This document shows, in pieces, positions 10,421-64,000 of a DNA stretch of 64,000 nucleotides (position 1 is its first letter; each line of letters starts with the position of its first letter). The notes under the pieces were generated by a model that was not told where the DNA came from, ran no database searches, and saw only the letters and a list, made by a program, of their open reading frames with translations. The stretch is from Isoetes taiwanensis. Its lineage: Eukaryota; Streptophyta; Lycopodiopsida; Isoetales; Isoetaceae. The translations under genes were made by a program, and so were the position numbers. The stretch spans positions 5,176,488 to 5,240,487 of the forward strand of contig JAJEKV010000053.1 of the NCBI GenBank assembly GCA_021234155.1, written 5' to 3'.

Positions 10421-11529
10421 GAAGAAGGTCTAGCATATACTGAGAGTATAGGGTAGAGGGGTAGGAAGTGAATAAAGTAAGATTGAATAGATGTTTTAAC
10501 ATCCAAAAAGACCAACAGGCCATGTGACCCATACAATGGGCTAGCATAACCATTACTACTAGGATGAAAAAAACCCTGCGTTGAAAGTTTGTCCTAGTAG
10601 GCATCTTGGCTTACATATGTTGCTTGTCCATTTATGGAATGCCTGCACAGATAATTTCAAATTTAAAGTTGTATGTTTGCCAAAATACAAGCTAAGAATG
10701 CAATACATGAGTCTGTTGCAATACCCATCTTATCAAACAGGAAATAAGCTTGCCAAAAACATGCTGTAAACAGTCGTAATGAGAGACAGGAGGATATTTC
10801 ACCCAATTTTACATCTAGATTAAATGCTCTAACGACCTCCCCCTTTTGTCCTAAGATTAGGAAATTGGCACATGGCCTCATCACGGTTACTCAAATTTAA
10901 CAAATATTCTCACCTTCCCTCTATTGCAAAGGGTGAATGTACCCTTGCAGGATATTTCTTAGGATGCGGGATCGTCTCGCCCAAATATGCTCACCAAGCC
11001 CTTATCCCAAGAAATGTCTTGCAGGGAACAATACCAATATTGAAACTGCCATCAACATCTATTCTTTTAACTTTGCAAATGAAGACCTCATATTTTGGTC
11101 ATTAAAGGGGCATCTAATAATTTTATGCCTACTTAAGGGTATTTTTGAACTTTAGAAAACTCGTCAAAGCATTTAAAATGCTGACCAATGGTACCTCGTT
11201 AAAATGAATAAACATATAGACAGGTCGTAAAATAACGCAAAATGTAAAAGGTGCTTTTTAGTTTTTATTTGAATTGAATTGTATGGTTTTTATCGTCCAT
11301 GGAGACTAATAAGCCTACGGGACCCAATAGAGGAGCACAATAGACGTATTACTGCTCGTAGTCTGAATGGTTTCCAAGGGAAAAACTGTGGCAGTAATAA
11401 AAATACTGACAAACTATACAAATATACATCATCAAATATATACATCCTAGCAATTGCAATAAAGCCATGCTCAATATCACATGTAGCAGCTGATCGTACC
11501 TGACCAACTCAGCATAGCATTTTTTGATT
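10421..11529. other. No gene recognised
   Basis: The region is AT-rich with short ORFs in several frames. None shows a family motif I can name and no terminal repeats were found. Part of it may be decayed LINE sequence following the ORF1 relic. Confidence 0.4.
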
Positions 11530-13600
11530 TGATCATCAGCTCAGCTGGACAGCTCTAAAGAGTGTGACATTCATCTTCAACGGCTCCCACTTGGCAGCAC
11601 TGACAAATCCTGTCTGGCGTGGCTCCCCAATCCATCTGCCTATCTCAATTCGAAGGCAGTGTGCACCTGTGTGAATCGAGAGTCGATGCCTTCTCATGAA
11701 CAAATGGGTATGCAAGTAGCATTGCAAGCCTTGTGCCGGTGTGAGATTTATCTACTGCTGGTAATGTGTTGTCTTAACTTGTTCAAGGGCATTATCTAAA
11801 GTTTGCTGAGGAAGCAAGCGTCAAAGTACTGTTTCAAGCTATGGCAATTTGCTTCAATTTGCACCTGTGCTCTTGGGGCTAGCCACTGAGCTCGTTTTTC
11901 CTTCAAGCAAGCCTTGAGTCACTACAACCCTGTTGCGACGGGCAGTCTGGGAGGACACGCATTGTCCATATTCTGAAAGTAGGCGATGTGGCAATCAAGG
12001 GCAGTCATCTGAAGAGGCAAGAAACTGATTTGAGCAGGATTTCATGTGGGACAGTGGATTTCACTTCCGATGCCCATGCTGAGAAGGCTTTCTGCACCTG
12101 CTTCAAGTCATTCCAGGTAGCAGAGGACATTTTGGGCCCCAGACTTCAATTCTGTATAGAAGAACGAATTCCATTAAGACCCTAAACAGGTGCGACTAAT
12201 CACACAACTCCGATCTATGACTCTTGTTTTGCATTGCGTACAATTCTTTCTGGTCTGCTTCCACACGTAACTAGATAAAAATGTCCTATTACATTGTAAA
12301 AGGAAACTCCACTCTTAAATACTTGTAGATGAGTGTCGCCTCCACGTTTTGCCCTCGATAAGTAATGAGGGGGGTCTTGATTGACATGAAGATGAGATGT
12401 GGACCACCTTAGTCTTGGCTACAATGACGCGCATTTCAGTGGCCTAGCAGAATGCGTTCAAGCCATTCAAATGGCACAGCATGTCCTCCACACTGTAAGC
12501 TAGGAGGTCTACATCATCAATGTATATGAGCTCCTGGGTGATCTGATGCAGAAATTGAGCTCTGTCGCCCCCATTATCAATAAACCAGCTCTCCAACTGA
12601 TCAATGTAAAGCTCAAATGGTGTTGGGAACCTGGCAGACCAAGATGATGTTGTTGAATGGTTGACATCCCGGCTACAACCATTCTGAGCATGTCTCATAT
12701 AGCTTGTGCACTGCATTATGCAGATCCACAGGGACCCCCATCTATCAATCTTGCACACAGTTTTTCCTAAGGCACAGTGTCAAAAGCCATGACGAAGTCA
12801 ACGAAGCAACAATAAAGTTCTTGCCGTTGGTTTTTACTTGTCTTCAATCAAAGTCCGCAATGCGAAGATAGGATCAATGGTTGAGTGTCGGGACCTGAAT
12901 CCTGCTTACGTGAGGACTCGTACCTCTGCCCCTTTATCCATCCTGTCAATTGCTGCTCCAGAATGCTAGTTAGCAGTTTTCAAATACCGAACTGACTATG
13001 ATTGTTTGATGATTGGCTTGGCAGTGCGGGTCACCTGCCTCGTAGATGGAAACAACCCTGCTAGTGGTCCACTGCGGGGGAAAGCCTTCCTGTAACGCCT
13101 TGTTGAACAAGGCAGTTAGGACTGGTACTGTAGAAGACTATGCCCACTTGAGCAACTCTGCCTGCATACCATCTAAGTCTCCTGCTTTTCCATTGGCAAG
13201 GAGTTGTAAGCCTTGGATGACATCCGCCTCTGTGATTTCTAGCGCTGAGCCTTCTTGCATGGTACTGATGCTCGTGCACCCTAAGGATTGTAGAGCTGCT
13301 ACAAGTATTGATCCCATTGCTCAGAAGTGATGTTCCTTGCAAGCTGTACTAGCTTTTTGAGCATCCTTTACCAGGAGGTTCTGGGATGACGGTCCAAGAG
13401 GTAAAACATCTCTCTTTGACGCCTCGCAATGTACCTGGATTTCTTAGCCTTGCAAAGAGTGCAATACTGTCTGGTCGTGTGTGGGCATGGGGGGAATCTA
13501 TTACCTGGTGGAGCCAGCATTTGAGTTCCTTACACTCAGCATCAAACCACTGGTTACGTGGGAAGGTTGTGGCATGTTTTCCACAGCTCTAAAAATTTGC
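11530..13600 (-). mobile_element. Degenerate LINE ORF2 relic
   Basis: On the minus strand, from 13600 downward, the expected LINE order is visible. It runs WFDAECKELK (about 13540-13570), EITEADVIQGLQLLANGKAG and WA-containing RT start (about 13190-13250), a fragment with AGDPHCQANHQTIIVSS (about 12980-13040), an FELYIDQLESW segment with YIDDVDLLAYS in place of YADDxxLLSRS (about 12500-12610), and near 11640-11660 RIEIGRWIGE, the counterpart of GVEIGRW. Numerous stops make it dead. It belongs to the same broad clade as the plus-strand LINEs but is far more diverged. Confidence 0.8.
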
Positions 13601-24295: not shown

Positions 24296-26500
<2,205 letters not shown>

Positions 26501-28260: not shown

Positions 28261-29460
28261 AATCTATGGGAATCCCAAGAGAGCATCTTTGAGAATGTAA
28301 GGGAATCTAAGGGAATCTTAATAAAATCTTTAAGAATCTAGGGGAATCTTGATAAAATCTTGGGGAGTCTAGGGGAATCTTCATAGAATCTATGGGAACT
28401 AGAGGAATCTCAAGCATAGAGCATCTTAGGGAGTCTCAAATGGATCTTTGGGAATCTGGGAGAATCTAAAGGAATCTTCATAAAATCTTTAAGAATCTAT
28501 AGGAATCTAGATGGAATTTTGAAGAATCTTGGGGAATCTTAATAAAATCTAGGGGAATCTCTGTAAAATCTTAAGAATCTAAGGGAGTCTTTGTAGAACA
28601 TTAAGAATCTAAGAGAATCTAGGAGAATTTAAGAAAATCTCAGGAGAATCTTTGGAAATCTAGGGGAATCTTCCTAAAATTTGTGAGAATCTAAGGGAAT
28701 CTTGATGGAATATTAGAGAATCTAAGAGAATCTTCATAGAATCTTGAAGAATCTACGAGAATCTTCATAGAATCTTCGGGAACCTGGAGGAATCATGGGA
28801 TAATCTTTGAGAATCTAGGTGAATATTAGGGAATCTTAAGAGAATTCTATGGAAATCTAAGGGAATCTAAGGAAATTGTCATAAAATTTTTAAGAATATA
28901 TTGGAATGTAGATAGAATCTTGGAGAACCTATGGAAATCTTAATAAAATTTAGGGGAATCTCCGTAAAATCTTAAGAATCTAGGGGAATCTTTATAGAAT
29001 CTTAAAGAATCTAAGAGGAAATCTAAGGGTATCTACGAGAATCTTAGTGCAATGGAAAATCTAGGGGAATCTTCATAGGATCTTAGAGAATCTAGAGGAA
29101 TCTCAAGAGAATCTTAGGTATTCTAGGGGAATCTTTATAGAATCTTGGGAAATCTAAGAGAATCTACATGGTTCAAGAGAGAAGCTTTGAGAATGTAAGG
29201 GAATCTTGATAAAATCTTTAAGAACCTAGAGGAATCTAGGGGAATCTTCCTAGGATCTTAGAGAATCTAGAGGAATCTCAAGAGAATCTTAGGGATTCTA
29301 GGAGAATTTTTATAGAATCTTGGGAAATCTAAGAGAATCTGAATGGATTCTTGGAAAATCTAAAGGAATCTTGGGATAATCTTTGAAAACCTAGGGGAAT
29401 CTCAAGAGAATCTAAATCTAGGCTAATCTTCAGAAATCTAGGGGAATCTTTCACGCTGGA
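27240..29460 (+). repeat. Degenerate GAATCT tandem array
   Basis: Hundreds of copies of GAATCT, each followed by 4-6 variable bases (commonly AGGG, TTCATA or TTGGG), run for over 2 kb with an average spacing of about 10-12 bp. The second copy of the 700-bp unit interrupts the array at 27569-28150. Longer sub-repeats are visible, for example blocks near 29060 and 29250. The array ends near 29460 and 29460-29640 is AT-rich with nothing recognised. There are no long ORFs. Confidence 0.85.
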
Positions 29461-43010: not shown

Positions 43011-44220
43011 ACAAATTCTGAGCTATCCAATGAAGATTCTATAAAGCTTCTCTTAGATTCTCCAAGATTTAGGAAAACGCCCACTAGATTCTCAAAGATT
43101 TAATGAAGATTGCCTTAAATTCTCGTAGTCCCATAGATTACTTAAGATTCCTTTAGATTCTCAAAGATTATCCCAAATTTTCTCTAGATTCTCCAAGATT
43201 CTATATAGATTCTCTTACATTCCCTTTGTTTCTATCAAGATTCTCCTACAAAACACATTTAATATGAAAGATTCTCTTAAATTCTTAAGAATCTACAAAG
43301 ATTCCTCTAGATTTCAAACGTTATCACAAGAATCCTCTAGATTCTCCAAAATTCTATGTATATTCTCCTAGATTTCGTTAGATTTTATGTATATTCCCTT
43401 AGATTCTATGTAGATTCCCTTAGATTCTATAGAGATTCCTCTAGATTCTTAAAGATTCCATCAAGGTTCCCCTAGATTCTGAAAGATTCTATGTAGATGT
43501 ACTCAAATTCTGCTAGATTTTGAGCCATCCAATGAAGATTCTATAAACAATGAAGATTCTATGAAGATTTTCTTATTCAGGAAAAAGTATCCTAGATTCT
43601 CAAAGACCTATTGAAGATTCCCTTAGATTCTCTTAATCCCATAGATTATTTAAGATTCTCTTAAGATTTCCCTAGATTCTCAAAGATCATCCTAATTTTT
43701 CTCTAGATTCTCCAAGATTATATATAGATTCCCTTAGATTCTATCAAGATTCCCCTACTAAACACACTTAGTGTGAAAGATTCTCTAAGATTCCCATAGA
43801 TTTTTAAGAATCTACAAAGATTCCTCTAGATTTCAAACGTTATCACAAGAATCCTCTAGATTCTCCAAAATTCTATGTAGATTCTCCTAGATTTTGTTAG
43901 ATTCTATGTAGATTCCCTAGGATTCTATAGAGATTCCCCTAGATTCTTCAAGATACCATCAAGATTGTCTCAAGATTTCTCTAGATTCTCCATGTTTCTA
44001 TGTAGATTCTCCTAGATCCCCTTAGATTCTATGAAGATTCCTCTACATTCTCAAAGGTTTTATAAAGATTCCCATAGATTCTCAAAGATTTCCTTGAGAT
44101 TCTCATAGATTCCCAAAGATTCTTTTGAGTCTCCTCTACACTCTAAGATTCTATGGAGATTCTCCTAGATTCTCTTAAATTCCTTAAATTCTGTAAAATT
44201 CTAAGTTTCTAAAAAGATTC
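43010..44220 (-). repeat. Degenerate GAATCT array, inverted
   Basis: The plus strand shows AGATTC repeated every 10-12 bp, the reverse complement of the array at 27240-29460. A higher-order duplication of about 505 bp is visible. The strings AGC(T/C)ATCCAATGAAGATTCT (43022 and 43522) and the AACACA(C/T)TTA(G/A)T(G/A)TGAAAGATTC block (43251 and 43754) mark it. Confidence 0.85.
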
Positions 44221-46294: not shown

Positions 46295-47641
46295 TTAAAA
46301 CAAATTTCCACATCTATATGCCAAGAACTTCAATTCATTTCCATGAAAGATCTTACATGCTTTTGAGTCAAATATGACTTTGTACCCTAAATCTACTAAT
46401 TGACTAACAAAAATCAGATTCTTTATGATGCTTGGTACACATAAGACGTTCTCAATATCAATGATGTTCCCTTGCAAGTCTGTAAGCTGTAGCAAACCAC
46501 TCCCTTCTATTGACTGCAATTGACCATTTCCTATTTGGACATCCTTTGAGTTGGTTGCCTTGACGTTTCTGAGCAGATCAGTAGATTGTACTACTGATCT
46601 CTCAGCTCCATTATCAACTACAAATGTTTCACAATTTGTGTTATCTCCATCATTTTTGTCAATAACAGCAAATACGCAACTTACCTCGTCTTCATTCTCA
46701 GCTTCTTTACCTTCTTGATCATTTTCTTGAGTAAGGTTGATCCCAACTGACCTTCTTCCTCCTCGGCCTCTGCTTGCAGAATTTCTTCCTCCTTGAGTTT
46801 CTCTTTCTTTTCCTCTTCCCCTGCCATAAGCCTTCGGGGAAGAGCATTTGACTGCTATATGCCCTTTGCCCCCACAGTTAAAGCAATTTATGTTATTGTC
46901 CTTAAGCTTTGGGAATTCATTCTTAACATGCCCTTGTTCATGACAGTAATAGAAAGATCCTTTTCCTTTCTTTCCTGCATACAATATTTCTGTGGCTTCA
47001 TCCTCACCGTTAATCTTTTTCTGTTCATATTCAGTCCTTAAAACATTTTCTGCATCTTCTCGTGTTTTGCTCATGTTCGTAATGAACAAGGATAATTGAT
47101 CATTATCTATTATAGCCCTAGAAATTTGAACCATTTGGCTCCTTTCAGAGACAATTACCCCAGCTCCAGACAGATCAGCTATGATATTATCAAAATTGAT
47201 AAAGAATTCGGATACATCACCTTCCTCCTGTAGTTTAAGACCTTTAAGTTCTTTTTCCAGAAGATCAACTTGGAAGGATGTTTTTTCTTCATAGTGCTTA
47301 AGCAAGAAATACCACATCTGTCTTGGTGTTTCGTTTCTAAGCTTAAGCCTGATTGTTGGACTCACCTTGCATGAGATATATCCTTGAGCTTCTTTGACTC
47401 TTGCATATTCAGTTCTCCCTGCACCAATGCGTAGAACTGTTCTTGTTGCATTTGCTTCACCTGTGGCATCATTTTCATTAGTAGCAATATTAACTGAACT
47501 TTCAGACCTGTGCATTGCATTCAAGTCTGCATGACTGACTTCAACACCCTCTGGATCAACGAGATCCCAGAGTTCCTCAACCTCCAGTATATGTTTGATG
47601 GAGTCTTTCCATACTTGAAAGCCTCTTGAAGACTTCAACAC
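46295..47641 (-). CDS. Ty1/copia gag-protease polyprotein, truncated
   Basis: The 448-codon ORF includes a gag domain of the UBN2 type (FLLKHYEEKTSFQVDLLEKEL, residues about 130-155), a degenerate first zinc knuckle (YCHEQGHVKNEFP, final Cys missing) and a good second one (CFNCGGKGHIAVKC). A charged linker and a protease segment follow. The protease catalytic triplet reads VDNGAERS, where D(S/T)G is expected, so the residue after the catalytic Asp is Asn. The segment NVLCVPSIIKNLIFVSQLVDLGYKV is typical of copia protease ends. The polyprotein is cut off by a stop and frameshift just before the integrase. The start is the first ATG after the primer-binding site. No other pol domains remain. 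Confidence 0.88.
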   Translation of the reverse strand: MLKSSRGFQVWKDSIKHILEVEELWDLVDPEGVEVSHADLNAMHRSESSVNIATNENDATGEANATRTVLRIGAGRTEYARVKEAQGYISCKVSPTIRLKLRNETPRQMWYFLLKHYEEKTSFQVDLLEKELKGLKLQEEGDVSEFFINFDNIIADLSGAGVIVSERSQMVQISRAIIDNDQLSLFITNMSKTREDAENVLRTEYEQKKINGEDEATEILYAGKKGKGSFYYCHEQGHVKNEFPKLKDNNINCFNCGGKGHIAVKCSSPKAYGRGRGKERETQGGRNSASRGRGGRRSVGINLTQENDQEGKEAENEDEVSCVFAVIDKNDGDNTNCETFVVDNGAERSVVQSTDLLRNVKATNSKDVQIGNGQLQSIEGSGLLQLTDLQGNIIDIENVLCVPSIIKNLIFVSQLVDLGYKVIFDSKACKIFHGNELKFLAYRCGNLF

Positions 47642-47696
47642 TGCTTAACGGACTAGCACCAAATCAACTAGACATATTAAATGATAAATGTGTCCT

Positions 47697-50750: not shown

Positions 50751-50789
<39 letters not shown>

Positions 50790-50839
50790 CCCTAGAATCA
50801 AAGAGAATTTCTTTCCTCCTCCTCCTCCTCCTCCTCCTC

Positions 50840-50916
<77 letters not shown>
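50751..50916 (+). repeat. (CT)n / (CTC)n / (CT)n compound microsatellite
   Basis: A (CT)n tract at 50751-50787, a (TCC)n tract at about 50813-50843 and a (CT)n tract at 50844-50916 border LINE A on its 5' side. Antisense Arg-Glu repeat ORFs are artefacts. Confidence 0.95.
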
Positions 50917-50920
<4 letters not shown>

Positions 50921-50964
50921 TGAAGGCGCGCGTGAAGGCGGGCGTTTGTGGCGGTCGTGTGCTC

Positions 50965-52246
50965 ATGGCAAAAACAAGGAAAGATACAGAGAAGAAAGAA
51001 GGGTCTTCGAAGGGATCTGATGGTAAGAGTTATCTTCTTTGCGGTTAGTCCCAATAATAAAGAAAGCAAAATCATGCGCAAGAGATGGCGATGGGAATCG
51101 AGGAAGGCCTGAAGGCGAAACCGATGAGACAAGAAAGAATAAAAAAGGGTATAAGGGGCGATTTCGGCGGTGATTCTTCTCGATTCGAATGGGTCTTCCG
51201 CCCGGTGTGCGGATCTAGCAATGATTCGTCACAAACCAGGAGGCTCGGTTCCGGGCCTCTCAAAAAGCAGGGGAAACCTGGCGAGATACGAAAATAGGGG
51301 GTTCGATTCTCGGCAGGTCATTTGCCGTGCTTCTCGAAAAAAGCGAGGTGATAGAGTCTTTGAAAGCAGGAGGGGCTAGAAGGAGCGGAATTTGGGCTGG
51401 GAGTGCAAATGGGTTCTAGTTTTTCCGGAACAGGACTAGGACTGGAAGTTTTGCAGCAAATGGGTTCGGGTTTCTCTGAGAAACCCTCTCTTTTTGCTTC
51501 CGGAACAGAACTAGGAACTTTTCCACATCCTGGGATGCTACAGTAGCAAATGGGTTCTGATTTCACAGCCATGATAAGAACTATCATCAAAGAGTCTGTT
51601 CGTGAAGCAGTACAATCTGCAATCTCTGAAATACATGGTCTTGTGGCAATAGAGGTGAAGAAGAGTCGGGCAACTATAACTCTTGCCCCTTAGAGCAGAG
51701 TACGAACTTTTCAAATCAGAAATGATGGTCACTCTGGAACACAAAGAAGAAGAGACATGTAACAAAGGGAAGGAGGCAGACTGTGACAAAACCGCAAATC
51801 TGAATGAAGAATCAATCTCAGAAATTAAACAACAGCTTGCAAGTTTCATGGAAATGCAAGAACAGAGAAATAGGGCATTAAACCTCAGAATTGTTGGGCT
51901 ACCAGAAGAAGAAGAAAAAGAGAACACTAAACAGAAAGTAGTACAATTTTTCAATGAGCATATGGAGACCGAAGACCATGGCATCACTGATGCTTTTCGA
52001 GTAGGCAGAAAAGGGGACTGGATTCGTCATGTGGTTGTAAAATTTCAAAACAGGGAGTATCGTTCACATATCCTGAGGAAAAGAACAGCATTAAAGGGAC
52101 ATAGTATATGGATAAACGAAGATCTCACTAAGGAACAACTGCAGGAACACAAAGTACAGATGCAAATAATGAGAGAAGCAAGGCAAGCGGGCAAGAAAGC
52201 TTTTTGGAAGAATAGGGAAGTCGTGATCCAGGCAGATGCAGAATAG
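50965..52246 (+). pseudogene. LINE A ORF1, broken upstream half
   Basis: The ATG at 50965-50967 opens a basic start (MAKTRKDTEKKEGSS) like that of LINE B. The frame then hits a stop and continues in pieces (51085, 51405-51690). From 51683 it is open to 52246. This last part contains a coiled coil (about 51700-51860), the core string NRALNLRIVGLPEEEE (51866 onward) and an RRM-like segment ending in SIWINEDLTKEQL and a basic QIMREARQAGKKAFWKNRE tail. The layout of coiled coil, RRM and basic C-terminal domain resembles the L1 ORF1p RNA-binding chaperone. Angiosperm LINEs usually carry DUF4283 or zinc-knuckle ORF1 proteins. Confidence 0.8.
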
Positions 52247-55200
52247 GGACTTGAGACCATCAGGGTGGGAGCTTGGAACGTTAATACTCTAAAACTCTCT
52301 GATGTAGACACAATGGGCAATGTTTTAGCGGTACTTGATCTGGTATTTTTCTTGGAAACAGGAGAACATGAAGGACGGGGATTGCCATTGATTGCTGGGT
52401 TTACTCTCGTTACCTCAATATGGAATCATAAAGGCTGGAGGCTTAAGGGCTACGGAGGCATCGGGTGCTATATTCGTACAGAATATGTTCATCTGGTTAA
52501 ACATGTAAGTAAGAAAATTTCAAAAAACTATATTTGGATTGAGCTTCCTGGTAGAAGTAAAAGGCTTTTTGTTGCGGGATGTTATTTCCCACCAAGATAT
52601 TCACCAACCTATAATTACGGAGATGTTGACCGCGATGACCCGTTTCATTATTTAGAACAAGATGTGGTGGAATTATCGCAACTGGGTGATACTGTGCTCA
52701 TAGGAGACTTTAATGGACGCATTGCTAATAGACAAGCAGCCATTAGTAGTGATCAAGGGGAAGCATTATGGCTAGAAATGCTAGATGAAGAGGAAGTGAT
52801 GAAATCCGGCTGGGCTAGAGTATCACATGATACGGCTAGATGGGCTAATCCCCAAGGGCTTCATTTGCTAAATATGTGCAGCGGACTAGATCTCTTGATC
52901 TATAATGGCACTAACAGATTTCCCAACACGGGGATTAGCATTACATGTCGAGACGCGGCGTGGTGGATTACGAATTACAAGCGGATTTTGCAAAAGAGGT
53001 TAAGAGCTTCTATGTAGGAGAGGTACGTACCGAATCAGATCATGTCCCTTTGATTATGGAAATTTATGTTAATGGAATGCCACAGCACACTAGCCTTATA
53101 CCTAACCATCGCATTTACATGCGCCAAGATAGAATGGAAAAATTTCAAAAGATGTGTGAAGAAATTGTCAGTAAAACCCATTGGCCATCTGGGGCAAAAG
53201 ACATAAGTGACTTGCTTTCGTCAGTATTGCTAAGTAGTGCTGCACAATCTTTTCAGTCTAAAAGAAGGCAATTGGGGCTCCCTTGCAATTCCTGGTTTGA
53301 TGCAGAGTGTAAAGAGAAGAGACAACGCTATAAGCAAGCCGCAGGTAGCTGTAAGCAAGACCTTAAGAAAGAATACATGAAATTGATTAAACGTAAGAAA
53401 AGGGAACACTTGCTCAAGAAACGTGCAGATATGGTCAAAGAGTTGATTGTTGAACCAAAGAGATTTTGGAATAGACTGAGATTTAAAGGAAGGCATGAGA
53501 TGAAGCTGGACTTAAATGCGCTAATGCAACAAATACGTAAACTTTACTATGTCCCAGGGATAGAGGAGGTACATCTTGTGGAAAAAGATGATGAGATTTT
53601 ACAGTTTTCAGTGGATGATATTTTGGGTGGGCTACAAAAACTCTCTAATGGGAAAGCAGCAGATATTCAGGGGCTAGTTTCAGAAATGGTTAAATGGGCT
53701 GGAATGCCTACAGCGGAGATCCTCACTATAATGTATAATGCAGCTCTACGTGAAGGTTTCCCAACATCTTGGCAGGTGAACAGGGTCATCCCACTACATA
53801 AGACAGGAGATGAGATGGATCCAAACAATTATCGTATGATAATGGTCAGCAGTCTTTTCTCCAAGCTATATGCTACCATTCTTGAGGGTAAAATAAATAA
53901 CTGGGCAGAAGAACATGAGGTCAGAGCACATGGGCAGGCTGGCTTCAGGAAAAAAAGGTCCACGATTGATCACCTGTTGACATTCAGAGGCTTGATAGAT
54001 TGGTAAAGGCACCAAAAACCTATGTTCGCCACTTTTGTGGACTTCACAAAAGCGTTTGACATGAATACAGTGAACTTTTGTGGCATAGATTGGAGGCACT
54101 TGGGGTACCCTCTATCCTGCGCAGGGCCGTGAAGACTCTCTATGAAAAGGTAATGGTTCAACTTTCATTTCCATTATCTCAGCAATGCCCAGATCTAGTG
54201 ACGAGTAACATTGGGGTTAAACAAGGCTGCCCTCTTTCTCCCACATTATTCGGTTTGTTTATAGATGAGTTGGAGGATTGGATGGCCCAATTTGGTGGAG
54301 ACGGTGTTGCATTAGAAGGGTATGTCATTTTGCTGCTATTATATGCTGATGATATTGTATTGTTGTCACGAAGTGTGCAAGGGATGCAGCAACACTTAGA
54401 TGCTTTGGCTTCCTTTTGCGATACCAAATGCATGAAAGTGAATATGACTAAGACGAAAGTGATAGTGTTTGGTGCTAACAAGGTGGATAAATTTGCCTTC
54501 TTCTATAAAGGAGATGACATTGTGGACAGCTATAAATATCTAGGTCTGATAGTGGACAAAAGTCCCAGCTGGAACCAAGCAGTAGAGCAAAAGGTTAATG
54601 GAGGCTTGAAAGCTTTATATGCCATGCAGCGTAAGTGTCATCAAGCAGAAATATGGGATTTCAGCCTGAGGAAGATGCTTTTTATTTCCTTGGTACAAAC
54701 AGTAGTACTATATGGCTGTGAAGTTTGGGGTCCAGGATTATCTGCAGAAAGTTGGAAAAAGATTGAGAAGGTACAAAAGAAATTTTTTCATGCAGAATTG
54801 GGCACTAAAATGCAAACACCTTATGATATGATGCTAGTGGAATGTGGGATGCTACCCCTGGAACTTGAAGCCCTAATCAGACTCTTGGTATATTTGCAAA
54901 AAATACAGACACACGCAGAACACGCTTGTTTGCCTCATTTGGCTCTTGAGAGCAGTGAAGGGAAAGGGTGGTATGCTGACATTGTGCTTTGGCTCAGAAA
55001 ATGGGGGATGAATATTGCGGACTTAGAGTCCAACAAGGATAATATCAAAGGTTGGGTTAGATGGCATGCTATCCACAAAATGTGGAGTGTACCTGAAGTA
55101 AAAAAAGAGCATTACAGATCTATCATGAACCCTGGGTTACGAGAAGCTGAGTATTTAAAAGCTGGATTATCGGTAAAGCTTAGACATACGATAAGCAGGA

Positions 55201-55577
55201 TGAGGCTCAGCTCACATCACTTGGGGGTAGAGATTGGACGCTGGGCAAGAATACCACATACATTGAGATACTGTAAAGTATGTGGATCATCTGAAGTGGA
55301 GGATGAGGTACATGTAATTTTGAGATGTCCGGCTTATCAGTACATACGCACGAAGTTTGGTATACATGTAACAGATTTAGTGGGCTTCTTTGATTTATCT
55401 CCAGCTACAATTGGACGGTTTCTAGTAGAAGTTATGCAAACTAGGGACACCAATATTCAAAACATAAAATCATTGGTAGGAGCTAGCGAGTTTGAGTATG
55501 AGGAGGAGAGCACTAATATGTTCTTACCCGAAGACATATTAGATGATATTATATATGATGTTGAATATGTAAAATGA
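52247..55577 (+). pseudogene. LINE A ORF2 (APE endonuclease and reverse transcriptase), two frame breaks
   Basis: The endonuclease begins directly after the ORF1 stop with WNVNTLKL. It includes FFLETGEHE, GGIGCYIR, RDDPFHYLEQD, GDFNGRIANRQ and, after a frameshift near 52950, SDHVPL. Reverse transcriptase follows with NSWFDAECKEKRQ, NGKAADIQGLVSEMVKWAG, NYRMIMVSSLFSKLY, GQAGFRKKRSTIDHLL and, after a second break at about 54005-54078, GVKQGCPLSPTLFGLFIDELEDW and LLYADDIVLLSRS (about 54336-54375). A C-terminal CX2CX9HX4C finger (CKVC...HVILRC) lies at 55270-55330. No RNase H domain is present. This is the target-primed reverse transcription machinery. No ATG precedes the endonuclease motif. Confidence 0.92.
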
Positions 55578-55578
55578 A

Positions 55579-55608
55579 CGTCTTCTAGGCCTGATGGTCT
55601 CACAGACG
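55579..55608 (+). other. LINE A 3' UTR stem-loop
   Basis: CGTC and GACG pair around an inner AGGCC/GGTCT stem. The same structure occurs in LINE B at 60122-60152. Its position just before the ATTTC tail suits a reverse-transcriptase recognition element. Confidence 0.6.
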
Positions 55609-55629
55609 TAAAAATAAAGATTTCATTTC

Positions 55630-55632
<3 letters not shown>

Positions 55633-55669
<37 letters not shown>
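55633..55669 (+). repeat. (TC)n junction between LINE A and LINE B
   Basis: A 37-bp TC tract directly joins the ATTTC tail of LINE A to the first base of LINE B. Confidence 0.97.
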
Positions 55670-55671
<2 letters not shown>

Positions 55672-55753
55672 GAGATCGATTTGCTACAGTGCTTGGGGGT
55701 TTGTTACAGACTGCTACAGTGTTTTGGGAACAGTGCTTTGGGTATCGGGCAGC

Positions 55754-56785
55754 ATGGCACGAAAGAAGAGGACTGCCTCAACAAGTGTTGGAAACAAGAA
55801 AAAAGAAAACCCAGTAACAGAGGAGGATTCGTTGGACTCTGATAGTGTCGGAAATGGTGCCGGAAACTCTGATAGCGCTGGAACAGGGGCCGGAACAGGG
55901 GGAGCAGGGACCAGAACAGGTGGAACTGGCAGTGTTATAGTCGGTAGAGAAACAGGGAGCCCGAGTTCAATCACAAAATTAGAAGCAATTGGTGGTGCAG
56001 ATCTAAGTTTTTCTGAGAAAACAGAGGTTTCGGGCTTTCCTGTTGCAACACCAGATACACTGACCAAGCAAGACCTGCTGCAAGCCATCGGCCAAATGCG
56101 ACAGGCAATGGATCACTCCTTAGTATCCATGAAAATATCCATGGAGATCTCAGTGCAAGGTATGGTTAACGAGCTCAAATCTTTTCTGTTATCCCATGTA
56201 CAGAATGAAATAGATAGATGCAAAGAAGCCATGAAAGTAGAACTGGAAAGCTTCCAGGAACGCATGAAAACTGAAATGGAAACATTCAAGCAGTCAGTTT
56301 TAAGACAGAATAATGATCCCAGTGGATCCACAGGCATGATGGAAACTAATGAAGATATCCTGGAAGTAAGAACTCAGCTTTCTACATATATCGAAGAGCA
56401 AGAAAAGAAAGAAAAGGCATTGAATGTGAGAATTGTGGGCATGCCCGAAGAAACTGGAGAACAGACCAAAGAGCTAGTGGTGGCTTTATGTGAACAGGAC
56501 CTTCAGATTATGGATGCAGGAGTGACTGAAGCATTCCGCATAGGCAAGCCGAACAGTGGCAACCGGCACATTATAGTCCGTTTCAGGTCCAGGGAGGATA
56601 AGATCAATGTTTTGAAAAAGAAAATGCTGCTGAAAGGGAAAAGAAACATATGGATAAATGACGATCTCACCAAAAGCCAGCTGCTAGAGTACAAAGCACA
56701 ACTTCAGATCTTCAAGGAGGCAAGACAGAGTGGCAAAAAAGCATACTGGCGCAGAGGAAAAGTCATAATAGAAGAAGATGCATAG
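55754..56785 (+). CDS. LINE B ORF1 protein, intact
   Basis: Translation starts at ATG 55754 with a basic tail (MARKKRTAS), followed by a Ser/Gly/Thr-rich low-complexity region to about residue 80. A long coiled coil follows (about residues 110-220, rich in Met, Glu and Lys). The RRM-like core reads KALNVRIVGMPEE and RHIIVRFRSRE, and the C-terminal part reads NIWINDDLTKSQ with a basic end (ARQSGKKAYWRRG). The layout and core motif resemble L1-type ORF1p (Transposase_22-like), an RNA-binding chaperone that coats the element RNA. The ORF ends at TAG 56783-56785, followed in frame by GAATTAGGGACCATCAGG and then ORF2. The 23 codons before ORF2 motifs are open, so readthrough would fuse the two proteins. 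Confidence 0.88.
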   Translation: MARKKRTASTSVGNKKKENPVTEEDSLDSDSVGNGAGNSDSAGTGAGTGGAGTRTGGTGSVIVGRETGSPSSITKLEAIGGADLSFSEKTEVSGFPVATPDTLTKQDLLQAIGQMRQAMDHSLVSMKISMEISVQGMVNELKSFLLSHVQNEIDRCKEAMKVELESFQERMKTEMETFKQSVLRQNNDPSGSTGMMETNEDILEVRTQLSTYIEEQEKKEKALNVRIVGMPEETGEQTKELVVALCEQDLQIMDAGVTEAFRIGKPNSGNRHIIVRFRSREDKINVLKKKMLLKGKRNIWINDDLTKSQLLEYKAQLQIFKEARQSGKKAYWRRGKVIIEEDA

Positions 56786-59700
56786 GAATTAGGGACCATC
56801 AGGATTATGTGTTGGAACATAAACAGCCTGAATTCAACTAAAGTAGCAACTATGAGTGATATTGTTGAACAAGTAGATGTTTTCTTTCTGTTAGAAACTT
56901 GTGAAAATGAGGAAAGAGGGATATTAGACATTCCAGGTTTTATATGTCTTCACTCGGTATGGCATCATAAGCACTGGCGGCTTAAAGGATTCGGTGGGAT
57001 TGCTTGTTACATAAAACAAGAGCTGCGAGGGATGATACAGTTAGTACATGGCATAAAATCTTTGCAATATATATGGATTGAGATATTGGGACCTTTGAAT
57101 AAAATATATATAGCAGGGTGCTACTACCCGCCACGTGAATCACCAGTGTATAACTGGGGGCAAATAGATAGGGATGATCCCTTTTTTGACCTGGAACAAG
57201 ATGTCCTAAAGTTAATGCAACAGGGAGAAGTGATCCTAATGGGTGACTTCAATGGCAGGATAGCACAGAAGCAAGCAGCAATGACTAGTATCGAAGGAGA
57301 TCCTTTGTGGATGGAAATGAATGACGGAAATGAGATGAAGGAACTAGGGTGGCATAGAGAGTCAGCAGATAGAATTAGGTGGCCCACACCACAAGGAAAT
57401 CATGTGCTAAATATGTGTACAGGGCTCGATATGGTCATCTATAATGGTCTCCAAAAATACAGGAATCTGGTAAGCCCACCTGTAGAGGTGCTAGTGTGGT
57501 GGATTTAGTGATAGCTAGCCCAAGATTAATGAGAACCATTTCAGATGTAGATGTTGGTGAAGAAAGGACAGAATCAGATCATGTGCCTATCTTTGTTACC
57601 ATGCATATTAAACCCCAAGAGATTGCAAGAAAAGTAGTAGACAGCTCTAGCAAAAAGATATACATGCGGTATAACAAAGCGGAGGAGTACAACTCCTTAT
57701 GTGAATCCTGTGCCATGTGCAAGGATTGGCCTGAAAAGGTGGAAGAGCTTACTGTGAGCCTTAGTGAATTGGTAATAGAGGCAGCAAAGAAATGTTTTGT
57801 CTCCCAACGCAGGTTAAAAGGGCTCCCGTGCAATAGCTGGTTTGATGAGGAATGCAAAACAAAACGACAAAAATTTAAACATGCAAGAGGGGAGGAGAAA
57901 ATCATGGCTAAAAGGGAATATATGCTACTAGTGAAAGCGAAAAAAGAAAAAGTTCCTATACCAAAAACACATGCGAATGATTGGAGATTTGCTGGTAGAG
58001 CCTAAGAAATTTTGGGCAAGGCTTAAGCCAAGAATGGAACAGGGTGAGTTGCTTGAGGTAGAACCATTACTCAGCCAAGTTAAAAAAATATACAATGTAC
58101 CTGGCATAAAAGACACTGCTCTAGCAGATTTCAATGTAGAATGGGATTTCACAATGGAAGATATACAGGGGGGGTTAAAAACACTGGCAAATGGGAAAGC
58201 TGCAGATAACTTGGGGCTGGTTGCAGAGATGTTTAAGTGGGCAGGAGATGAGATACACAAAACATTGCTGAAATTAATGAATATGGTATTGAGAGAAGGC
58301 TTCCCACGGGAATGGCAAATAAACAGGGTTGTTCCCTTGCATAAAGCGGGTGATAAGTCAGATCCCAGCAACTATAGGATGATTATGATCAGTAGCCTAT
58401 ATGCTAAGCTTTTTGCCACTATGGTTAATAGCAAACTAAGCGGATGGGCAGAAGAAATGGGTGTACAGGATATAGGACAAGCGGGTTTTAGACCCAAACG
58501 GTCCACTACAGATCACTTGGTTACTTTGAGAGCGATGATGGATACAGTTACAGGAACAAGGAAACCACTTTATATGTTATTTGTAGATTTTACAAAAGCT
58601 TTCGACATGGTGGACAGAGACAATTTATGGGAACGTATGGAAAAACTGGGGGTGCCAAACGAATTAAAGCAAGCAGTCAAAATACTATATGAGAAGGTAC
58701 TTGTGCAGCTATCTTTTCCTTATTTTAGAGAAGGTCAGGAACCAGTAGTAAGCAACATAGGGGTAAAGCAAGGATGTCCCATGTCTCCCACTCTTTTTGG
58801 GTTGTTCATAGACCAACTAGAAGATTGGATGATGCAGAACGGAGGGGATGGTATGGCTCTAGAGAGGTTTGTGGTGTTCTTACTCTTATATGCGGATGAT
58901 GTAGTGCTTTTGTCAAGGTCAATTGCTGGAATACAGAAACATTTAGATGGATTGGCTGAATTTTGTGACCACAAGAGTATGAAAGTGAACATGGGAAAGA
59001 CTAAAATAATTGTGTTTGGGGCAAACAAAGTGGATCACATACACCTTGTTTACAAAGGGGAACCGGTAGAACTGGTGGATTCATATAAATACCTAGGGAT
59101 ACAGGTTGATAAAAGTCCGAGTTGGAACTATGCTGTAGAGCAGAGGATAAATGGTGGGCTAAAAGCATTGTATAGTATGCAGCGCAGCAGTAGAAAAAAT
59201 GAGATTTGGAACTTCCAATTGAAAAAGCAGTTATATGGGGTTCTAGTGCAAACAGTATTGTTATATGGCTGTGAGGTATGGGCTCCAGGTTTGGCTGAGG
59301 AGACTTGGAGGAAAATAGAAAAGGTACAGAAGAAGTTTCTCAGAACAGAGCTCGGTGTTAAATCACAGACACCATATGACATGCTATTGGCCGAGTGTGG
59401 GATGACATCATTGCAATCAGAAGCCCTGTGCCGAACGCTTAAGTATGTATGCAAGGTACAGGAAATGCCTGTATCAAGTTTACCACGATTGGCCTTAGAG
59501 GCAACGAAATACAAAGGGTGGTATGCCGATATACAAAATTGGATGAGAAAATGGGATTTAGATGTATCTGGATTGGCCGAACATCATGCGGATATTAGGG
59601 AGTGGGTATTGGAACATGTTATGGAGAAATCATGGAGAGTGCCAAAAGTCAAGAAGGAATATTACAGGCGGAATATCAGCCCACAGCTTCAGGTTCCAAG

Positions 59701-60109
59701 ATATTTGAGAGAAGGTGTGTCATTAAAGTTAAGACATACAATTGGCAGAATGAGACTTAGCTCACATCATCTTGGCGTTGAAGTTGGGCGTTGGAGCAAT
59801 ATTCCCCACGAGCTGAGACTCTGCAAGCTATGCAAGATGGGAGTGGTTGAGGATGAAATGCATGTGCTTCTACAGTGCCCGCAATACAAAAGCATCAGAG
59901 ATACATACGATATTGTTTGTGGTAACTTGATAGCTTTCTTTGATATGCCAGGTAGCACAATCGGTAACTATATTGTTAAAATTTTGGATCATAGGGATAT
60001 AATGTTGAGGAAACTTAACATCCAAGAGATACAAGAGGATGAGTTAGAGGGGTCTAGTAGTGCATTTCTTTCAGAGGATGCACTAGAGGATATATTTTAC
60101 AATCTGTAA
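56786..60109 (+). pseudogene. LINE B ORF2 (APE endonuclease and reverse transcriptase), two frameshifts
   Basis: The ORF lies in the ORF1 frame. An ATG at 56807 is available (MCWNINSLN). The endonuclease has FFLLETCENE, GFGGIACYIK, RDDPFFDLEQD, GDFNGRIAQKQ and, after a break near 57500, ESDHVPIF. A second break near 57970 precedes the long 57971-60109 frame. That frame carries NGKAADNLGLVAEMFKWAG, NYRMIMISSLYAKLF, GQAGFRPKRSTTDHLVTLR, FVDFTKAFDMVDR, GVKQGCPMSPTLFGLFIDQL and LLLYADDVVLLSRS (about 58876-58920). A CX2CX9HX4C finger (CKLC...HVLLQC) follows at 59822-59880. Compared with LINE A, the catalytic FVDFTKAFD block is intact. The two frameshifts prevent a full product, although each lies in a spacer. 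Confidence 0.93.
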
Positions 60110-60121
60110 GTGTATAGTTGA

Positions 60122-60152
60122 GCGTCACATAGACCTGGTGGTCTGCAGACGC
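60122..60152 (+). other. LINE B 3' UTR stem-loop
   Basis: GCGTC/GACGC forms the outer stem, and AGACC/GGTCT forms the inner stem around TGGT. The element in LINE A differs at several loop and one stem position but keeps the fold. Confidence 0.65.
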
Positions 60153-60172
60153 ATATCTATAAACATTTCATT

Positions 60173-60175
<3 letters not shown>

Positions 60176-60261
<86 letters not shown>
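60176..60261 (+). repeat. (TC)43 junction between LINE B and LINE C
   Basis: This is an uninterrupted 86-bp TC tract. It is preceded by the ATTTCATTTCA tail of LINE B and followed two bases later by the ATG of LINE C ORF1. Confidence 0.98.
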
Positions 60262-60263
<2 letters not shown>

Positions 60264-60265
<2 letters not shown>

Positions 60266-61296
60266 GGCTTGATCCACGATTAAGCTCAAAACTAGGGCAC
60301 AAAAAAACAAGGAAAAAATCTCCCAATCAGACCCTGCTGTTCACGAAAAAGGACCCGGTGCTAAATCGGGATCCCAGTCCCATGGTAGCGTGCAGAAGGG
60401 GGCTCCTAAACCAGGAGCCCCAAGAAACAAACAAAAAGCAGCAGCATCCGATGCAGAAGGAGATGAATCAGAGGCAGAATCCGGGAGCATGCATAAGGTT
60501 TCGGCTGATGGAAATCCAGGTACGTGTCCTCCTTTGTGTGGATTTAATATCTGGCTAGGGATGGGCATAGCAGGGATGCAAGGGATGCATGGGATACAGA
60601 ATAGCATAGCAGGGATGCAATCTATAACAGGGCAACAGGTCCCCAACGATTTGATGCCAATGTTAAGCCAGGTTATCAGTGAACTCTCTGCAACAAGAAT
60701 AATGATGATGAAAATGATGGAGCTGATGGAAACATCTCTGAAATCCCTGTCTCTTAACCTGGCAGAGCTCAAAGCAGAAAACCATCCATGAAAAGAGAGT
60801 TAGAAAGTCTGAAAACACAAAGACAAGAAGACTGCTATGAATTTGACAGAAATGATGAAAATGACTCGTTGAAGGAAGTGGTTCAGAAATTGAATCAAAG
60901 ATTTGATGATCTCAAAGAGCAGCAAGACAGGCAAAGCAGGGCCCTTAATCTGCGAGTAGCTGGCTTGCCTGAAAAAGAAGACGAAAATGTTAAGAATGAG
61001 GTTGCTGAATTTCTAGCACAACAGATCAATGGGATAGTAGAGGCTTTCAGAATTGGAAAGCCAAATGGAAAGGACAGGAATATAGTGGTGAAGTTCTCTC
61101 ATAGAGATCATAAAAATGCAGTACTGTCAAAGAGGAAAACTTTGAGTGGAAAGAAGATATGGATCAACGAAGATCTCACACAAAATCAATATATGCAGCA
61201 CAAACTAGAAATACAAAAATGAAAGAGGCCAAGCAAGCAGGAAAACAAGCAAAATGGAGAAAAGGCAAAGTAGTGATAGAAGATGTAGGGGAATAG
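60264..61296 (+). pseudogene. LINE C ORF1, broken
   Basis: The ATG is followed by GCT and then TGA where LINE B has CGA, so the third codon is a probable C-to-T nonsense change. The frame then stays open to 60791 with a low-complexity region and a Met/Gly/Gln-rich stretch (about 60540-60640), unique to this copy. A frame shift near 60790 leads to the coiled coil and the RRM-like core (SRALNLRVAGLPEKE, RNIVVKFSHRD, KIWINEDLTQNQ) and, after another shift near 61215, a basic end with TAG 61294-61296. Confidence 0.85.
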
Positions 61297-63990
61297 GAAT
61301 TGCAGGCCATCAGGATTTGTACGTGGAATATCAACGGATTAGATAGCAACAAAGTAGCTTCTGCCGGAGATGTTCTCAATCAATGGGATGTAATCTTCTT
61401 GACCGAAACACATGAACATGAGGAGGCGGGTTTGCCAATCATAACGGGATACCAAGTTCTACATTCAGAGTGCTATGGAGACATAGAGGTTTTGGAGGGG
61501 TAGCGTGCTACGTGAAAGAAGGGCTGGAAATTGTGAAATTGAAGAAAAAACACTGTACAAAACAATTCATTGTGATCGAGATACCAGGGAGGCATAAGGC
61601 AACATATGTAATAGGCTGCTATTTTCCTCCAAGGGAGTCCCCTACGTATGACCGCGCGAACATGGACAGGGATGACCCTTTTCACCACTTGGAACAGGTA
61701 GCTTTGGAATTGATGGAATTGGGGGATATAGTCATAATGGGAGATTTTAATGGAAGAATTGCAGACAAACAAGCATACATAAGCAGTCAATCAGGGGAAC
61801 CCGTCTGGATGGAAAGAATGGATGACGAAGAAATGCGGATAGCAGGTTGGGCCAGGCAAACATCAGATTCATATGAATACATTATGCCACAAGGGAATCA
61901 TCTGCTTAATATGTGTGGCGGCCTAGGAATGCTTATTCTTAATGGGATTCCACGTTTTGCAGACACTCATAAATGCACTTCGAATGGGACAGGGGGAAGA
62001 GGATCTAGTGTAGTGGATGTGGTGATTGCACAGGCTCAGTTCATAGACAAAATATTGGCTTTCACAGTTGGGGAAATAAGACCAGAGTCCGACCATGTGC
62101 CTATTGTAATTAAGCTTGAAACCTGGAAAGGAAATCCTGTACAAAAGAAGGGCCACAAGTATGGAGGAGTGAAAATGAGCTACAAGAAGGCAGACACATA
62201 TATGAAAATGTGCGAAGAAAGGTCGCAAGCTCTAATATGGCCAGATACTGCTGCAGAAATCAGCACAATGCTCACAAACATGCTTCTGGAAACAGTGGAG
62301 AAATGCTTTACTTCTCATAGAAAAATGAAGGGGCTCCTTTTTAACATCTGGTTCGATGCAGAATGCAGGGCAGAAAGAGAGCGATATAAGAAGGCAAGTC
62401 AGCAAGAGAAACCAGCCATAAGGAAAACATATTTCAAGCTGTTGAGGTATAAGAAAAGGGGATTTCTGAGAAAAAAACAGGAAGAGCTAGTTCTAGAACT
62501 CATCGCCAAATCAAAAAGGTTTTGGAATAGACTAAAAGGGACAACAAAGGGACTCACTACCAAGCTAGAGGAGAGAACTTACTTGGACATTTGAATAAGT
62601 TATACCATATTGCAAATGTGGATGATAGCGACATGCGGCAATGACATTATGGAAATACTTGAGAGGAGGATGTAATTCATGGGCTCTGCGAAACTTGCCA
62701 ATGGCAAACCAAAGGGATGCAAGGGGCTGATCAGCGGAAATGCTTAAATGGGCAGGCCCAAACACTACACAAGTCATAGTCAAGATGCTAAATGCAGCAG
62801 CAAGAGAAGGTTTCCCATCCACATGGCAAATAAGCGAGAAGTCTTGGATTCATAAAGCAGGAAGTGAGACCGATCCAGGAAACTATCGAATGATAATGGT
62901 AAGCAATATTTTTTCTAAACTTTTTGCATCCATTGTTGAACAGAAACTAAGTTTATGGGCAGAGATACATGGAGTTAGAGCAAAGGGCCAAGCAGGTTTC
63001 AGATCTAAAAAGTCTACCATAGACCATCTTGTTACTCTCAGAGCAGCCATGGACTCTATAAAAAAATGAAGAAACCTCTGTTTTGCATTATTTGTAGACC
63101 TAACCAAGGCTTTTGACATGGTTAGGAGAAGCAACTTTGTGGGGAAAGAATGGAGCACATAGGGATCCTGTGACCATGAGAAATCAACGGTTGCTTGTTT
63201 GTATGAGAAGGTTCTTATTCAGCTGTCCTCTCCTCTAGTGGAGGAATGCAAAGAGTTTGTACATAGTAATGTTGGGGTTAAACAGGGGTGTCCGCTGTCC
63301 CCAACTCTATTCGGCATTTTCATTGATGAACTGGAATCCTGGATCACACAAAAAGGCGGCGAAGGAACAATAGTAGGTGGCTATGCTCTGTTATTGCTCC
63401 TGTATGCAGATGATATAGTGTTATTATCAAGAAGTAAAAAGGAGACTCTGAGAAACATTTAGATGTGTTAGAGGCATTTTGTGACAGGATGCAAATGAGT
63501 GTAAACTTAAAGAAAACCAAGATCATAGTATTTGATACAAAGACGGATGACTTCACCTTCACATTCAAGGGAGAAAAAGTAGATTTGACAACACAATACA
63601 AATATCTTGGGCTCTTTGGTAGACGAGAATTACAAGTGGAACAAGGCAAGTAGAACAAAAAAGCGGATCTTTGGTTTGAAAGCCTTGTTTTCCATGCAAA
63701 GAAGATGCAAGAAAGCGGAGATTGTAGATTTTGGACTTAAAAAAATGCTATACAAGGCGGCTTGTTCAAGCGGTTGTATTATATGGATCGAAGTGTGGGG
63801 ACTGGTCTATCTCGGGATATGTGGAAAAGGATTGAGAAAATCCAAAAGAAATTCTTGATGTGAGCTAGGAGTTAAACTCCAAGCGCCTTATGAGATGCTC
63901 TTAAGTGAAAGCAGGGGCTGATCCCATTGGAAGGGAGGCAATATGCCATTTCTTGCATTATTACAAATTAAAGTCCGGGAACATGGATGA
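61297..63990 (+). pseudogene. LINE C ORF2, multiply frameshifted, incomplete
   Basis: The endonuclease starts in the ORF1 frame with AIRICTWNINGLDS and no ATG. After a break near 61475 it continues with GGVACYVKEG, DRDDPFHHLEQ, GDFNGRIADKQ and SDHVPIVI. Further breaks lie near 62580 (a deletion or rearrangement up to about 62700), 63065, 63190 and 63460. Reverse transcriptase blocks seen are GQAGFRSKKSTIDHLVTLR, GVKQGCPLSPTLFGIFIDELESW and LLLYADDIVLLSRS (about 63390-63435). The zinc finger lies beyond the window. Confidence 0.9.
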
Positions 63991-64000
63991 AAGGCGCGCA

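Follow-up and report, generated by a model that had tools for sequence, protein, structure and literature searches.

A clade of LINEs in Isoetes taiwanensis that very probably prefers (TC)n microsatellites as insertion targets

A 64-kb stretch of the Isoetes taiwanensis genome (assembly GCA_021234155.1, contig JAJEKV010000053.1, positions 5,176,488 to 5,240,487; hereafter the window) carries three long interspersed nuclear elements (LINEs), termed A, B and C, which lie head to tail on the plus strand. These elements belong to a clade that very probably favours pyrimidine-rich microsatellites already present in the genome as its insertion sites, (TC)n most of all, the TC being read on the sense strand. 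This reading is based on the flanks of copies across the genome, their fixed orientation, empty sites in paralogous copies of a host repeat, the presence of TC at 5'-truncated ends and the recurrence of head-to-tail arrays. A lineage inserting in (CT)n had been proposed in an original prediction made from the letters of the window, and both the flanks of other copies and the empty sites have now lent it support.

All six edges of A, B and C adjoin (TC)n with TC on the sense strand, and the TC tract alone lies between A and B and between B and C. The plus-strand order, the TC at every 5' edge and at both visible 3' edges, and the lack of anything else between the elements had been recognised in the original prediction, and the 3' edge of C can now be added to them. 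The predicted lengths of 37 and 86 bp for the tracts between the elements are correct, while the tract left of A, put at 73 bp, measures 75 bp. The outer left edge as a whole is compound, consisting of one perfect TC/CT tract of 37 bp (50751-50787) and the one of 75 bp (50843-50917), with a short unique stretch and a TCC repeat (50814-50845) between them. Sequence left of 50751 can be assigned, on the basis of its paralogues, to a host repeat named R1. Element C runs past the end of the window into the stretch L035, where its 3' end, made up of the conserved hairpin region and GGAAAATAAAA, runs into approximately 154-158 bp of (CT)n (from 3184), followed by the right flank of R1. The first 50.7 kb of the window contain one other TC/GA tract of at least 10 bp, a (TC)70 at 24298-24437 with no LINE adjoining, which is a possible unused target.

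A and B are APE-type LINEs, with the Pfam domain Exo_endo_phos (endonuclease; 2e-7 and 4.7e-10) followed by RVT_1 (reverse transcriptase, RT; 8.8e-18 and 1.7e-30). In C, Exo_endo_phos_2 was detected below the cut-off, and the element aligns to A and B in both endonuclease and RT. The reading frames of all three are broken, those of B in the endonuclease/linker region, and the 5' untranslated region (UTR) of B measures 84 nt.

A tabulation of flanks, proposed along with the original prediction, has been carried out on 64 copies. With the RT of B as query, 63 matches corresponding to 62 copies including B (58-100% identical) were obtained, only the best candidates being scored, and A and C were added. 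Flanks were read partly by script and partly by eye, leaving out copies with unreadable ends (L010 and L078 from the 3' counts; L010, L022 and L069 from the 5' counts). On the 3' side, (TC)n of at least 10 bp with TC on the sense strand adjoins 45 of the 62 readable ends. The script accounts for 39 of these and the eye for six (L006, L007, L013, L016, L031, L065), where the tract either escaped the regular expression or begins one to nine other bases past the tail. The chance of 45 of 62 edges meeting such a tract at its density in the window is about 2e-98, with one window only as background. CCCT- or CTCTCC-type polypyrimidine follows four further 3' ends (L034, L057, L064, L085) and short TC of 5-9 bp another seven (L009, L032, L058, L073, L074, L086, L087), with six having no TC (L005, L027, L029, L060, L067, L071). 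On the 5' side, (TC)n of at least 10 bp has been found at 49 of 61 readable ends, together with one case of polypyrimidine (L057) and two of short TC (L023, L064); some of the 5' tracts contain interruptions or an admixture of CCCT. TC of at least 10 bp occurs on both sides in 40 of the 60 copies in which both can be read. Most copies are found in one kind of target with a fixed orientation, as is characteristic of target-specific LINEs. At some insertion sites the TC tract gives way to (CA)n or (AC)n (L024 and L077 on the 3' side; L073 on the 5' side, L131).

Head-to-tail arrangement is also recurrent. The 3' end of another LINE lies just upstream, within about 350 bp and with TC between, on 22 of the 61 readable 5' sides (B, C, L007, L013, L014, L023, L057-L062, L064, L068, L072, L074, L076, L078, L080, L081, L084, L087), which makes the array in the window typical of the clade. 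The inter-element TC is short in L023 and L064 and of the CCCT type in L057.

Copies truncated at the 5' end are informative as to the origin of the tract. TC of at least 10 bp is present at the truncation in 16 of 24 such copies (L006, L008, L009, L013, L017, L025, L031, L032, L063, L066, L068, L070, L074, L080, L081, L083), which are cut at different points in ORF1, in the endonuclease or near the RT; L070 is counted here, though its ORF1 start cannot be judged. The other eight comprise one with polypyrimidine (L057), one with short TC (L023) and six with neither (L020, L027, L033, L034, L071, L085). As TC is kept at the truncation point in these 16 copies, the tract represents the target and not a 5' UTR. 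L006 and L032 share an identical truncation point between unrelated left flanks; a truncated copy may have been mobilised in this case, perhaps transcribed from its own TC tract.

Empty sites were examined in R1, the host repeat that also lies right of C and for which 46 matches were listed in the genome. For 20 of these, which are paralogues and not orthologues, 451 bp across the site were taken. In 12 of the 20 a TC-rich stretch links the left and right flanks known from the window and no LINE is present, the longest TC run being 6-21 bp in 11 and 98 bp in one, so that the target sequence is present at empty sites in paralogues. In six others a LINE 3' end continues through TC into the identical right flank, and in two the left side is occupied by other sequence (L143, L156). 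The array in the window shares its R1 right flank with L014. The longest TC run has a median of 84 bp at filled sites (n=8) versus 13 bp at empty ones (n=12; one-sided Mann-Whitney p = 0.011), lengths having been typed from printouts and those of two empty sites (L140 and L155, 6-7 bp) read by eye. This difference indicates that insertion probably extends the target: the elements probably enter mostly short TC tracts, which tend to be longer afterwards. The original prediction had itself allowed for a TC tract internal to the element, and for elements that carry or extend it. An internal or carried tract does not agree with the 16 truncated copies that keep TC or with the 12 TC-rich paralogous empty sites, while extension is supported by the difference in length.

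Further copies lie beside another host repeat, in which an arm starting CATGTGGCC directly adjoins (TC)n. The arm has been observed left of L009, L050 (L017), L055 (L012), L025, L031, L106 (L070) and others, and its inverse right of others; in no copy do both arms occur together. This repeat is perhaps palindromic with a TC centre, supplying targets.

The 3' end of the clade consists of a conserved stem-loop, as in stringent-type LINEs, and a tail of ATTTC units, as a rule 2 to 7 in number. Copies without TC stop at the identical tail. The stem-loop has z values of -3.1 in A and -3.4 in B, and three of its ten pairs show changes on both sides among 27 sequences. A poly(A) 3' tail of the L1 clade type is not found, the tails being ATTTC repeats or, in C, AAAATAAAA. 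A restriction-like endonuclease (RLE) in place of the APE domain, as in R2, NeSL and HERO, was likewise not found, an APE domain being present and a C-terminal RLE not having been searched for. A model of the A endonuclease (mean pLDDT 77.7) matches the LINE-1 endonuclease first, as well as APE1 and the TRAS1 endonuclease (1wdu, rank 46), with modest TM-scores of about 0.4-0.56.

Target-primed reverse transcription is established for R2. If insertion takes place by this route, the fixed orientation would mean that the (GA)n strand is nicked first. This nick would be made by the endonuclease, and the (GA)n 3'-OH would prime reverse transcription of an RNA ending in the conserved stem-loop and (AUUUC)n, the last UUUC of which could pair with GA repeats. 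Second-strand joining would again make use of TC, and the tract might be lengthened by slippage or by RNA reading into downstream TC. Each copy would then be bordered by TC on either side, offering the next element a new place to land, and arrays would grow in one orientation.

RT comparisons show that A, B and C are diverged lineages of one clade, belonging to different families. They group together in the RT tree (SH-aLRT 99), and with 16 genome copies added they form a 19-row TC clade with a support of 100/99. The possibility that they are tandem duplicates has been rejected, as A and B are only 58.6% identical in RT and C is lower. A more distant relic in the window, D, falls outside the TC clade together with P0010 (98/91), C and D being long branches whose exact positions are unsure. 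L005, L027 and L029, which have no TC at either end, are nested in the TC clade among on-target sisters and therefore look like single off-target events. Stop-free open frames of at least 1100 aa occur in 17 of the 63 listed RT matches. Against solved structures, the RT obtained similar scores for R2 (78.6 bits) and LINE-1 (69.6 bits). The 120 homologous RT proteins listed, of 664, are at most 43% identical and come without flanking sequence. Three distant loci from genome contigs (L001-L003) are 26-32% identical, and tandem-repeat scans of them revealed no (TC)n, these loci being too distant to count. L001 and L002 are LINE-bearing contigs within a metagenome-assembled genome of the cyanobacterium Trichormus and are probably plant contamination, perhaps from Azolla. 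Viral contigs yielded no matches, whether searched with the 3' pattern or at the level of protein or alignment, and a protein search with ORF1 gave none at E <= 0.001.

Sister-type elements have served as a control. None of the five recognisable 3' ends of this type (D, L025, L033, L158, L160) runs into (TC)n, tails being AATTC, ATTCT or CTTC repeats; the ends in L025 and L033 were assigned by 3'-end motif, that of D also by RT, and L158 and L160 come from the 81 matches listed for P0010. The third P0010 match taken, L159, has no recognisable 3' end. The CTTC-type stretches of L158 and L160 could be a tail or another pyrimidine target.

The presence of TC at both ends of most copies could also be expected if the tracts belonged to the element, as a (TC)n promoter or 5' UTR and a (TC)n 3' tail deposited at random sites. 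The short 5' UTR of B, which would allow a promoter to lie in the flanking TC, and the longer tracts at filled sites agree with this. It does not, however, account for copies that still start at TC when truncated in ORF1, the endonuclease or near the RT, for the TC-rich stretch held by empty R1 copies at that same point, or for a conserved 3' end formed by (ATTTC)n, at which six copies end without TC. Element-borne TC is thus largely refuted and very improbable. Specificity could instead reside in the RNA 3' tail, with (AUUUC)n or read-through (UC)n pairing with (GA)n at any nick independently of endonuclease preference. In most junctions TCTC follows on an ATTTC or ATTTCA unit, and the variation in unit number, as well as the greater tract length at filled sites, would be in keeping with such pairing. 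Nonetheless, C lies equally inside TC with AAAATAAAA at its end, which favours the endonuclease over the tail as the source of specificity, and sister-type ends whose tail is made of (CTTC)n, (ATTCT)n or AATTC lie outside (TC)n. We regard specificity by tail pairing as unlikely, though deserving of serious consideration.

Arrays and TC flanks might also be the product of recombination, or of unequal exchange, between TC tracts and not of insertion, considering that such tracts are recombinogenic in principle and that two R1 copies (L143, L156) have other sequence on the left. Truncation points that differ among copies, diverse flanks and the assignment of A, B and C to different families render this improbable, although single arrays may have formed in this way. 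A false joining of contigs at low-complexity TC, which could mislead an assembler, is scarcely credible: the pattern recurs at dozens of loci, including some whose tracts measure 8-40 bp, always in one orientation, and is absent from the five sister-type ends. Moreover, the I. taiwanensis assembly is described as built from Nanopore reads and Bionano maps (PMC8566536).

Several observations weigh against preferential insertion into pre-existing (TC)n. Specificity is not absolute, since neither end has TC in five of 60 copies (L005, L027, L029, L067, L071) and nine 5' sides are without it (the same five, together with L020, L033, L034 and L085). Part of the targets resemble (CCCT)n, and element and TC are separated by a few other bases in L007 and by an (AC)n stretch in L073. 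No target site duplication can be read inside a microsatellite. The copies were picked by RT similarity to B (best-scored) and not at random, and the classification of flanks was partly by eye. The control set is small (five), with three of its members assigned by 3'-end motif, and the sister families behind the two (CTTC)n tails might prefer other pyrimidine repeats. Finally, cutting inside (CT)n by the endonuclease is something that we infer from the sequences, and pairing between RNA tail and target could contribute.

A further shared property is an in-frame UAG at the junction between ORF1 and the endonuclease, past which the endonuclease of A, B and C continues in the ORF1 frame. Across all loci read, 29 distinct junction places have been compared, of which 25 have an in-frame stop (24 UAG and one UGA) and four have none within the range looked at. 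No in-frame AUG precedes the first endonuclease strand in 14 of the 25 stop-bearing junctions. A conserved UAG, often without an in-frame AUG, suggests that the endonuclease-RT protein is made by UAG readthrough or by non-AUG reinitiation. Folds downstream of the UAG revealed no RNA structure common to A, B and C. Tentatively, and at somewhat less than an even chance, these elements may be pictured in full as a clade that homes to (TC)n and lengthens the tracts as landing pads, with lineages piling up head to tail in 'TC hotels' and the polymerase being produced through programmed UAG readthrough from ORF1 into the endonuclease and RT. The coordinates of all these features are collected in Table 1.

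Table 1. LINE-related features of the window (positions within the 64-kb stretch)
Feature	Position	Strand	Description
Relic D	11270..13560 (limits approximate)	-	Outgroup; tail of AATTC units, then no TC
Left target remnant	50751..50917		(CT)18.5, short unique stretch, TCC repeat, (CT)37.5
LINE A	50918..55632	+	ORF1, in-frame UAG at 52244, endonuclease, RT; frames broken
In-frame UAG of A	52244..52246	+	ORF1/endonuclease junction
3' UTR of A	55575..55632	+	Stem-loop, then short ATTTC-repeat tail
(TC)18.5, 37 bp	55633..55669		Target remnant at the 3' edge of A and at the 5' edge of B
LINE B	55670..60175	+	ORF1 from 55754, UAG 56783, endonuclease, RT 57935-60109
In-frame UAG of B	56783..56785	+	ORF1/endonuclease junction
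3' UTR of B	60107..60175	+	Stem-loop, then short ATTTC-repeat tail
(TC)43, 86 bp	60176..60261		Target remnant at the 3' edge of B and at the 5' edge of C
LINE C, 5' part	60262..64000	+	Runs past the window end into stretch L035
In-frame UAG of C	61294..61296	+	ORF1/endonuclease junction

Other features have been observed in the window. An HPPD-like reading frame (18961-20265, minus strand) has no visible intron and groups with Selaginella (98) on a long branch; it may be a diverged paralogue or a retrocopy. Degenerate arrays of AGAATCT- and AGATTCT-like units occur at 27299-29440 and 43329-44202 in opposite orientation. A 449-aa frame with a zinc-knuckle-like motif (46295-47644, minus strand) resembles a Copia-type gag.

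To our knowledge, microsatellite-targeted LINEs have so far been described in animals. Work by Kojima and Fujiwara in 2004 is said to have reported such targets for animal elements of the Tx1 group, fish Kibi in TC repeats and Koshi in TTC repeats. The original prediction knew of no plant family specific for (CT)n, and none for (TC)n was found in searches of the open-access literature either, which is not proof. A plant (TC)n clade seems undescribed in that literature, microsatellite-targeted LINEs as such being a known kind of element. It constitutes a large clade in a vascular plant, for which paralogous empty sites, off-target exceptions and a sister lineage so far without the preference are at hand, and the evolution of target choice, by endonuclease or by RNA tail, becomes testable inside one genome. 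Retrotransposon insertion is further suggested as the means by which some long TC tracts have grown. A plant LINE is thereby offered for studies of site-directed insertion, and the conserved UAG raises a second testable question, concerning the translation of LINE ORF2.

When compared to known systems, the clade resembles the Tx1-group animal LINEs in its APE endonuclease and RT and in a simple pyrimidine repeat as target, reportedly that of Kibi, and differs from them in its plant host, (ATTTC)n 3' tail and in-frame UAG. The TRAS and SART LINEs of insects (R1 clade) likewise combine a short tandem repeat target with an APE endonuclease, and the endonuclease model matches that of TRAS1; their target is the telomeric TTAGG repeat, whereas the clade described here occupies (TC)n at dispersed loci. 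Plant L1-clade LINEs also encode an APE endonuclease and RT, and one monocot lineage among them is described as having a 3' stem-loop of the stringent type (PMC3747384). Unlike these plant elements, the Isoetes clade has no poly(A) tail, ends in (ATTTC)n and shows a strong target preference. Microsatellite targets are known for LINEs, and some HERO families share this kind of target (PMC4640811); HERO and other RLE-encoding target-specific LINEs are distinguished from the present clade by the APE-type endonuclease of the latter.

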